A stretch of DNA of 64,000 bases. Source: Neoarius graeffei (Eukaryota; Chordata; Actinopteri; Siluriformes; Ariidae). The stretch covers positions 6,264,001 to 6,328,000 of the forward strand of contig NC_083587.1 in assembly GCF_027579695.1 (NCBI RefSeq). Direction: 5' to 3'. Shown here piece by piece: positions 3,874 to 54,752 of the stretch (position 1 is the stretch's first letter; each line of letters begins with the position of its first letter). The position numbers and the translations under genes were made by a program. The notes beneath the pieces are model-generated. The model saw only the letters and a program-made list of their open reading frames with translations. It had not been told where the DNA came from and made no database searches.

Positions 3874-4145
3874 ACTGCGAATTTTGCAAATCCTTCTTTC
3901 TCAACAAATGTGAGGTTCATGGACCGCCCCTCTTCATCCCAGATACTTCTGTTCCCATGGGAGTCCCTAACCGAGCCAGACAAACTCTTCCTTCTGGGCT
4001 AGAAATCCAGAAGTCCAGTATTCCTGATGCAGGCCTGGGAGTGTTTAATAAGGGGGAGACGGTTCCAGTAGGTGCACACTTTGGACCCTGCCAGGGAGAG
4101 CTGGTGAACCGAGAGGAAGCCAAGAACAGTGGAGACTCCTCGGTT
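3874..4145 (+). CDS. prdm9: PRDM9-family exon: zinc knuckle and N-terminal half of PR/SET domain
   Basis: This exon encodes the start of the histone-methyltransferase part of a PRDM9-type protein, which in mammals marks recombination hotspots with H3K4me3 and H3K36me3. It opens with a C-x2-C...C-x2-H knuckle (CEFC, then KCEVHGPP) followed by the family motifs PNRARQTLPSGL, IPDAGLGVFN and HFGPCQGE. A CAG acceptor ends at 3873 after a pyrimidine run. The exon starts in phase 1 (xAC), fitting the Tyr that precedes CEMC in human PRDM9. A GTGAGT donor follows 4145 in phase 0. The Cys codon at 4089-4091 occupies the position of human catalytic Tyr276. The alignment is from memory of the human protein. 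Family membership is secure; alpha/beta paralogue assignment is not. It is one of four exons; the next is 38.7 kb downstream. Confidence 0.93.
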
Positions 4146-4750
4146 GTGAGTTTGTCATAAATTTATTATGAGATATTGTATATTTTTAAGAAACAAAATA
4201 TGATGACTAGATGAAAGTAGCTCCAATTAACATTAACTTCTTCTTGTCACTGATATGTGGACGAGTGGTTTAAATCACAAGTTTGATCACAATGTGATCC
4301 TACATCGATTCTTTTAGCCAGTGTGGTGAAAATTCACCTGTTTATAATAGAAATACGAGTAACACCTGAATAATGCTCAAGCAAATGTATTTATTTATTG
4401 TATAATTTAATGAAAGTCCCATAAAATCACAAGCCCAGGTAGTCGCTAACATAGGTCCTCCCATATCTACTTCTAGGCATGTTCAGCTTCCTGTCTTACA
4501 CAAGATATTAATCGTAATCATAGCTTCCATCAACATTTTGTAATAGTCTGTTTTCCCAACTGCAGCTGAGAAAAACTGTCCCAAGTTTTCCTTGACTCTG
4601 CCGCATCCACGACAACCCAGTAGCAGCTTCTCACACGCGCGCAAAAACAAAGAACTTATTCATTCACACTTGCAGCTTGTTTCTTTTCTAAATGTCAAGG
4701 CTAAACAGAGAAGCATGACACTACAGGATTTGAACATATATTGTTAGCTA

Positions 4751-52015: not shown

Positions 52016-53175
52016 AATACATTCAGTGCAATCCAACCAGCTGGCTGAAGAGAAGTTAGTTGAACACACATGCAGCATGCCTGAAACAAGCGAAGTTGTT
52101 AATTGGCTAATGCACATGTCAGTCAAACCCATCAACCATTATACAAATCAATTGGAACACATTTGCTTTATTTCAGGAGTATATGTGATGATGCTCATAT
52201 TATCAAGCAGTTTAACAAGCAATAACATTTTTAGTATTTTTATGGAATTCAGTGATTCCACAAGAGTTATGCCATGGAGAAATAATGTTTTAATTATGTT
52301 TATTTTTAGCTCCTCAAACTCTTGTAGCTGAAGAACTTCAACATGTTAAGGGACAAATAGCATCAGATGAATGAATAATTAAACAGGTGGAAGTTTGGTT
52401 GCTTTATTACTACAAACCACACCGTGGCATTCTTCAAATACTGCAGTAAGGAAATTCCTATACTACTGCAGAACTACTTGAATGCCATCTGAATCGTTGC
52501 AGTCTGCCCCTTTTTTATACGCCTACATTTTTATTTAATTAAATGACCAATGTCTTAATTTCTGGATGTTGGCTTTCTTTCTTTCATCAGTTACACTAAT
52601 ATGAATCAACTGGGTTTCACAAAATCCCACAATTTTTAATTTCATTAAATTTGTGTGTTATTGAAATTAATGTGTTTTAAACTTGACAACCTAATCCATA
52701 TGAAAAATACAGACTTTGTTGTGTAAATGCTACTAGAAACCATTTGCAAATAAATCTATTCATATCCAGCATGATAAATAAGGCCCATTTTTGGATCTTT
52801 GAATGCAAGGGCTGACTTTCCTTCACAATCCTGGACGAGCTGTAAATAAGGCAAGGCTTGCCATTAACTAGACTTGATATTAGATCAAACAGAAACCAAC
52901 AACTCCCCCTTGGTCACTCAGACCCACGGGGCTATGGCCAATGCTGTGCATAGCTGCTGTTCTAGTACCTTTATTGAATCTACAGTACCAGTACTCCTAG
53001 TTAGAGACTGCTATATGTTAGTCCTCAAACTTTTTTGTCTCAGTCTTGATTCATGTAGAATCTTGAATGTTTGAGGTTCAGTAAAAATGCTCCCTTACAT
53101 TGGGTTAGTGTTATATTTTATAATCTTGTTGCATTTCATGTTCAATTTCTGATTTTTGTCCTTTCACTTCTCCAG
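52016..53175. other. End of intron 3
   Basis: AT-rich intronic sequence with no supported coding frame or repeat, ending in TTTCACTTCTCCAG, the acceptor for the zinc-finger exon. Confidence 0.5.
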
Positions 53176-54752
53176 AAGTAAAGAAGACTTTGCTCCAGGT
53201 CTTTTCCTGCTCCACATGTCCTCGTTCCTATGCATCTCAAATTTACTTTGACAAACACAGCCAGAGATGCCACTATGAAGAGTATGTGAGACTGCAGGAA
53301 TCAGGAGAGATTAAATATGAGCTTCAGATTCCCTCCAAATGCTCCAGTAGTCAGCCAACATTATCTGATGCTCTCAGTTTTGACACTTCTCATAATGATA
53401 TACAGAAGGAAATTCACCACTGCTCAGACTGTGGAAAGAGTTTTAGTCATCAGAATGCACTCAAGACACACCAGCGCATTCACACAGGAGAGAAGCCGTA
53501 TCACTGCTCACAGTGTGGGAAGAGTTTTACTTATCAGAGTCATCTCCAACGACACCAGCGTATTCACACAGGAGAGAAGCCGTATCACTGCTCACAGTGT
53601 GGAAAGAGTTTTACTCGTCAGAGTGCTCTCCAACAACACCAGCGCATTCACTCAGGAGAGAAGCCGTATCACTGCTCACAGTGTGGGAAGAGTTTTACTT
53701 ATCAGAGTGCTCTCCAACAACACCAGCACATTCACACAGGAGAGAAGCCGTATCACTGCTCACAGTGTGGGAAGAGTTTTACTCATCAGAGTGCTCTCCA
53801 ACGACACCAGCACATTCATACAGGAGTGAAGCCGTATCACTGCTCAGAGTGTGGGAAGAGTTTTACTCAGCAGAGTAATCTCCAAACACACCAGCGCATT
53901 CACACAGGAGTGAAGCCGTATCACTGCTCACAGTGTGGGAAGAGTTTTACTCATCAGAGTGCTCTCCAAAAACACCAGCGCATTCACACAGGAGAGAAGC
54001 CGTATCACTGCTCACAGTGTGGGAAGAGTTTTACTCATCAGAGACATCTCCAAACACACCAGCGCATTCACACAGGAGAGAAGCCGTATCACTGCTCACA
54101 GTGTGGGAAGAGTTTTACTCATGAGAGTGCTCTCCAACGACACCAGCGCATTCACACACGAGAGAAGCTGCATCACTGCTCACAGTGTGGAAAGAGTTTT
54201 ACTCATCAGAGTGATCTCCAAAGACACCAGCGCATTCACACAGGAGAGAAGCCGTATCACTGCTCACAGTGTGGGAAGAGTTTTACTCATCAGAGTTATC
54301 TTCAGCAACACCAGCGTATTCACACAGGAGAGAAGCTGTATCACTGCTCACAGTGTGGGAAGAGTTTTACTCATCAGAGTAATCTCCAACGACACCAGCG
54401 CATTCACACAGGAGAGAAGCTGCATCACTGCTCACAGTGTGGAAAGAGTTTTACTCATCAGAGTGATCTCCAAAGACACCAGCGCATTCACACAGGAGAG
54501 AAGCCGTATCACTGCTCACAGTGTGGAAAGAGTTTTACTCATCAGAGTGCTCTCCAAAAACACCAGCGCATTCACACAGGGGAGAAGCCATATCACTGCT
54601 CACAGTGTGGAAAGAGTTTTACTCATCAGAGTGCTCTCCAAAAACACCAGTGCATTCACACAGGAGAGAAGCCGTATCACTGCTCACAGTGTGGGAAGAG
54701 TTTTACTCGTCAGAGTCATCTCCAAACACACCAGCGCATTCACACAGGATAG
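53176..54752 (+). CDS. prdm9: PRDM9-family terminal exon: post-SET C2H2 knuckle, linker and 16-finger C2H2 array
   Basis: The acceptor is CTCCAG ending at 53175; the phase-1 join to 43287 gives QQEVKK. First comes an isolated C2H2 (CSTC...HSQRCH, about 53205-53273), placed like the proximal PRDM9 finger, then a roughly 45-residue linker. From 53415 there are 84-bp units, each a C2H2 finger with a TGEKP linker. Sixteen fingers run to a TAG at 54750-54752. Helix positions -1/+2/+3/+6 are, in order: HNAT, YSHR, RSAQ, YSAQ, HSAR, QSNT, HSAK, HRHT, HSAR, HSDR, HSYQ, HSNR, HSDR, HSAK, HSAK, RSHT. Position +2 is nearly constant; -1, +3 and +6 vary. The family role is sequence-specific DNA binding in meiosis; function here is inferred. 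A generic KRAB-type zinc-finger gene is unlikely given the spliced SET exons. Confidence 0.93.

Follow-up and report, generated by a model that had tools for sequence, protein, structure and literature searches.

PRDM9 chooses the sites of recombination in mammals and salmonid fish (PMC11703093 for trout, in excerpt), and a PRDM9-like locus with a long zinc finger array in the catfish Neoarius graeffei raises the question of whether a copy of this kind could still do so. The locus lies in a window of 64,000 nucleotides, by which we mean the whole stretch of DNA analysed here. Judged by its sequence, it is a real copy of the PRDM9 family. What such a copy might do depends on the state of its SET domain, on what lies upstream of it and on how its fingers vary.

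Exon chain and family membership

The exon chain, with its introns, reads as follows.

Exon A, 3874-4145 (+): zinc knuckle and first part of the SET domain, with Y276C, Y291D and W293S in human numbering (tblastn, alignment)
Intron 1, 4146-42874 (+): 38.7 kb, GT-AG, with many transposon pieces (Pfam, self-comparison)
Exon B, 42875-42942 (+): middle of the SET domain (tblastn with the human query, weak at E 0.028)
Intron 2, 42943-43108 (+): 166 bases
Exon C, 43109-43287 (+): end of the SET domain, with Y341 and Y357 kept and Y361H (Pfam, tblastn, alignment)
Intron 3, 43288-53175 (+): 9.9 kb, holding part of a reverse transcriptase on the opposite strand
Exon D, 53176-54752 (+): proximal finger, linker, finger array and stop TAG at 54750-54752

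AG stands directly before each exon and GT starts all three introns. Once joined, the exons read in one open frame from zinc knuckle to TAG, the SET exons being free of stops and frameshifts, and these GT-AG sites together with the in-phase frame bear out the four-exon splice chain proposed in an earlier note on this DNA. The order of parts given there is that of PRDM9, and all of them are present: zinc knuckle, three-exon SET domain, proximal finger and a long C2H2 array in one exon. The motif in exon A that we take to be a zinc knuckle has three Cys and one His that align with human PRDM9, and the proximal finger in exon D aligns with the human post-SET finger.

The joined SET domain aligns with human PRDM9 (PDB 4ijd) without a gap over 161 residues from the start, so that the gap-free match of 30 residues claimed for the first junction holds. 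Identity amounts to 84/161 residues with human PRDM9 (44/90 in exon A, 8/22 in exon B and 32/49 in exon C) and 86/161 with mouse PRDM9. When compared with PDB chains, the domain matches PRDM9 best among the 15 sequences listed (4ijd at 5.1e-59, 4c1q at 3.4e-56 and 6nm4 at 8.6e-56). The next PRDM family among the chains is PRDM11 at 5e-36, and the listed matches weaker than PRDM11 are to PRDM12, 14, 4, 1, 2, MECOM, 10, 16 and 5, with the PRDM2 chains at 2.8e-16 and 2e-15. Assignment to another PRDM family was rejected on this comparison, PRDM9 being best among the PDB chains listed. The only PR domain label that Pfam gives on exons A and C is 'PRDM2_PR' (34.1 and 66.8 bits).

A tblastn search of the window with the human PRDM9 SET domain recovers the same exons, at 3876-4151 for exon A (E 7e-29), 43107-43253 (E 7e-16) and, weakly, 42875-42943 (E 0.028), and one further match in the window is at chance level (E 0.94). 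Together with the exon chain and the PDB comparison, this search supports the family membership claimed before. An alternative exon A inside the window was rejected, as tblastn with letters of the window and of human PRDM9 gave a single exon A. We also considered that exon A and exons B-D might belong to two adjoining partial copies, a possible reading, though one opposed by the join at residue 90/91, which is exact and without overlap.

The introns and flanks hold other elements. Within the 38.7-kb intron, an uninterrupted stop-to-stop frame of 1069 residues at 25350-28559 (-) carries endonuclease and reverse transcriptase domains and is presumably LINE-type, and many diverged copies of another repeat lie at 23186-34915 (~77 to 86% alike among the matches listed). 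A Tc1-type transposase with a DDE_3 domain occupies an open frame of 360 residues at 5050-6132 (+). A second Tc1-type copy, ~96% alike, lies at 57035-59048 (-) and is interrupted at 57542-57918 by the nested insertion of a dispersed 370-bp repeat. This repeat of ~370 bp occurs in both orientations in at least eight near-full copies, ~90 to 98% alike among the matches listed:

Near-full copies of the ~370-bp repeat, among the matches listed: 2881-3251, 10027-10391, 13625-13994, 31240-31612, 38106-38474, 41588-41957, 50022-50395 and 57542-57918
Parts of the ~370-bp repeat, among the matches listed: 6949-7190 and 29478-29650

An RVT_1 reverse transcriptase piece in the 9.9-kb intron (45088-45594, -) and an integrase core piece (rve; 63163-63531, -) probably come from LTR-type elements. 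An open frame of 276 residues at 14071-14901 (+) matches DUF659 below the cut-off (21.9 of 34.7 bits) and is possibly a hAT-like transposase. Scans of the window with Rfam at the gathering threshold and for tRNAs gave 0 matches, and no relative was confirmed among the 15, 3 and 1 matches from pattern searches of genome and viral contigs.

Lysine pocket and upstream domains

The alignment with human PRDM9 places Y276C, Y291D, W293S and Y361H in the SET domain, and Y341, Y357 and N320 are kept. According to the excerpted text of PMC12122940, the target lysine has a channel made up of W293, Y357 and Y361, with Y276, Y341 and Y357 around its amino group. Of these five lysine-pocket residues, three (Y276, W293 and Y361) are substituted here, including one of the three catalytic tyrosines. 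Since these three residues are replaced, we infer that the SET domain would be weak or inactive on H3K4 and H3K36. The earlier note was right to see a SET domain of PRDM9 type and had overlooked the substituted pocket residues.

The loss of one tyrosine is no proof of lost activity, a point that the cited part of PMC5519329 draws from PRDM7. Indeed, PRDM7 has a changed Y357, yet H3K4 methylation remains, with selective trimethylation (PMC4919437, in excerpt). Primate PRDM7 and the present locus are alike in being PRDM9 copies with a changed catalytic tyrosine and differ in which one is affected, Y357 being lost in PRDM7 (PMC4919437, same excerpt) and Y276 being lost with Y357 kept here. Within the portion of the survey in PMC5519329 used here, tyrosine changes are found in 0 PRDM9-alpha genes, in all PRDM9-beta genes and in no complete PRDM9, only in partial genes. 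Siluriform orthologs, as far as the cited passages of PMC8892340 describe them, have intact tyrosines and are putatively without KRAB. Y276C is unusual for an alpha copy, and because the alpha genes of the survey all have intact tyrosines, we hold an alpha assignment to be likely rather than certain.

In the three forward frames of positions 1-3873 (3873 bases, to the window edge) neither KRAB nor SSXRD was found, a point absent from the earlier note. No Pfam match there had an E value of 0.1 or lower, and this silence is weak evidence, as a Tc1-like end near the left edge went unflagged too. The introns of 38.7 and 9.9 kb indicate that upstream exons may lie beyond the window, and KRAB and SSXRD exons may be among them. 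Siluriformes and Characiformes are without the ancestral KRAB in the excerpt of PMC11600626, and the electric eel has a complete PRDM9 in that of PMC8892340.

Variation among the zinc fingers

Tandem Repeats Finder reports units of 84 bp over 53418-55190, and we place 21 in-register units at 53415-55178. Across units 1-16 the mean pairwise DNA identity is 0.914. The array divides into the following parts.

Translated array, 53415-54749 (+): fingers 1-16, 84 bp each, with C2H2 residues kept in 16/16
In-frame TAG, 54750-54752 (+): in the linker of finger 16; the same codon in units 2-19 is GAG in 15 and GTG in 2
Untranslated remainder, 54753-55178 (+): units 17-21, with decayed sequence after unit 21

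Position 54752, earlier taken as the end of the array, is instead the end of a stop inside finger 16, with units 17-21 beyond it. The C2H2 residues are intact in units 17-19, and unit 20 has a second in-frame stop (55023-55025) and a lost Cys. According to the text of PMC11703093 cited here, function is not necessarily impaired by nonsense changes in an array. Units 10 and 13 share all 84 bases, and units 8 and 19 are one base apart.

The codons for helix positions -1, +3 and +6 are the most variable part of units 1-16 at first and second codon positions, where their nucleotide diversity is 0.440, compared with 0.044 at the other first and second positions and 0.116 at 10 four-fold sites. At these positions the triplet ranks first of 3276 codon triplets. 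At the amino-acid level it is again first of 3276 in units 1-15, with 11 distinct combinations in 15 fingers. A counter-pattern appears when all three codon positions of units 1-16 are counted, in that a non-contact codon near the second His (index 20, encoding R, H, C or L) equals -1 at 0.55 each. The variability at -1, +3 and +6 on a homogeneous backbone, as first described, is upheld at first and second positions and does not single out the contact codons when all positions count. The rapid variation described for the array is read from differences between fingers inside one copy.

To place the array among published ones we used r, the fraction of the amino-acid diversity that falls on -1, 2, 3 and 6 (defined in the excerpt of PMC11703093). 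It is 0.498 for fingers 1-15, 0.507 for fingers 1-16 and 0.498 to 0.549 across six finger choices, and a three-site version (-1, 3, 6) gives 0.414 to 0.512. Resampling of fingers 1-15 (5000 draws), a rough guide given that fingers are non-independent, puts the four-site r at 0.389 to 0.635, with 99.8% of draws above 0.331, and the three-site r at 0.324 to 0.578, with 96.5% above that value. In the part of Table 1 of PMC5519329 available to this comparison, r is 0.253 to 0.331 in 13 SET-only teleost alpha rows, 0.158 to 0.213 in beta rows, and 0.455, 0.500 and 0.538 in three complete teleost rows; human and mouse have 0.687 and 0.910 (same paper, in excerpt). At ~0.50 the array exceeds all 13 SET-only teleost alpha rows and falls inside the range of the complete fish copies. 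By this measure it looks like the array of a complete PRDM9.

A complete PRDM9 would be expected in the top 5% of its genome's finger genes for the contact-site share of diversity. In the cited portion of PMC5519329, fast finger evolution goes with the complete set of domains, one possible exception aside. That same portion places an Ictalurus finger gene with r = 0.320 at rank 14 of 140, which indicates that genes other than PRDM9 can also have high r in such fishes. We read the contact diversity on a homogeneous backbone as a trace of past or recent selection and of exchange between fingers.

Competing readings and a possible recombination role

The locus can be compared with several known systems. 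Siluriformes have amplified class I (alpha) copies, with 34 candidates, counted by annotated name, in a single Clarias species (PMC11600626, in excerpt), and Ictalurus has seven SET-only alpha genes (PMC5519329, in excerpt). Amplified KRAB-less alpha copies in catfishes are already published, which the earlier note overlooked. As the cited text of PMC11600626 describes it, class I has one long terminal array and an optional proximal finger, and the teleost PRDM9 SET domain is spread over three exons. The locus shares the long terminal array, the proximal finger and the three-exon SET domain with this siluriform expansion and differs in its three substituted lysine-pocket residues, the likeness being one of layout. 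Its single long terminal array with a proximal finger fits the published class I layout. Layout and r together point to alpha, whereas the tyrosine change is at odds with a typical alpha. With human and mouse PRDM9 (4ijd, 4c1q) the locus has in common the zinc knuckle, the SET domain, the proximal finger and the diversity at finger contacts; it differs in just over half of the aligned SET residues being identical (84 and 86 of 161), in the changed pocket and in that no KRAB or SSXRD was seen here.

A further comparison is with the KRAB-less PRDM9-alpha2.2 of Salmo salar, which has r = 0.471 and a single array allele in 20 fish (PMC11703093, in excerpt). High r is common to both, at 0.471 there and ~0.50 here. 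The salmon copy keeps all three tyrosines and has five fingers in its one allele, whereas the present copy has C in place of Y276 and 16 in-frame fingers. As the salmon copy combines high r with one allele, high r alone is no proof of hotspot function. Hotspots in rainbow trout are set by full-length PRDM9, according to the same excerpt.

We consider it reasonably likely, from sequence features, that the locus is an alpha-type, KRAB-less copy that binds DNA and probably does not direct hotspots. It would be of PRDM9-alpha (class I) type, with a three-exon SET domain and a further exon that holds both the one proximal finger and the one long terminal array, and would most likely belong among the amplified KRAB-less alpha copies known from fishes, above all catfishes. 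The protein would bind DNA through its 16 fingers. If its SET domain has little or no activity on H3K4 and H3K36, it would not direct hotspots, and its role may be that of a DNA-binding factor without a methyl mark or a drift towards loss. Findings that run counter to parts of this explanation include r above all 13 SET-only teleost alpha rows, which a plain KRAB-less copy would not be expected to show, and a frame open as far as finger 16.

Several other readings were weighed. The copy may be a young pseudogene, one of many copies in which the pocket changes and the stops are the first signs of decay. In line with such decay are an array with two in-frame stops and a lost Cys, the replacement of three pocket residues and of Y291, and the many transposon pieces in the introns. 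We nonetheless think it unlikely, given SET exons without stop or frameshift, intact splice sites, C2H2 residues in 16/16 fingers, and non-contact first and second positions less diverse than four-fold sites (0.044 against 0.116), a pattern that finger exchange or older selection could also leave. At the other extreme, the copy may be a PRDM9-alpha that is complete, or was until recently, and continues to direct recombination, with its KRAB and SSXRD exons upstream of the window. The r of ~0.50, within the span of values for complete fish copies (0.455, 0.500, 0.538), the first rank of the contact codons among 3276 triplets at first and second positions, the 38.7-kb intron, which shows that upstream exons could be distant, and the complete PRDM9 kept in the electric eel (PMC8892340, in excerpt) all favour it. 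This reading is quite improbable, however, in view of Y276C, W293S and Y361H in the pocket, of the failure to find KRAB or SSXRD in the 3.87 kb upstream to the window edge, and of the survey in PMC5519329, whose cited portion has no tyrosine change in any complete PRDM9. The hint in the earlier note that recombination might be PRDM9-directed is weakened by the same substitutions, by the stop in the array and by the upstream scan of 3873 bases to the window edge.

A PRDM9-beta gene (classes II to IV) would share a tyrosine substitution with all beta genes of the survey (PMC5519329, in excerpt). The other classes have several short arrays instead of one long one (PMC11600626, in excerpt), r in beta rows is 0.158 to 0.213 instead of ~0.50 (PMC5519329, in excerpt), and in the cited part of the salmonid study (PMC11703093) two or more of the three tyrosines are missing from beta copies, as against one here. 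The beta type was rejected on array layout and r, and we regard it as highly improbable. A different possibility, to which we give only a small chance, is that an alpha copy with a disabled pocket has an array that is still diversifying. Selection on the fingers would then be uncoupled from histone marking, for example in copies that act as hotspot-competing decoys or bind transposons.

With the alpha-type, KRAB-less copy as the preferred reading, the locus bears on a published rule. In the excerpt of PMC5519329, fast evolution of contact sites is tied to the complete PRDM9 domain set, and tyrosine changes occur only in partial genes. This copy provides a test case for that rule because it combines r of ~0.50 with a substituted tyrosine and two further changed pocket residues. 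The array may be left over from a recent loss, an explanation put forward for salmon alpha2.2; alternatively, finger diversity in such families is driven by a force other than hotspot marking.
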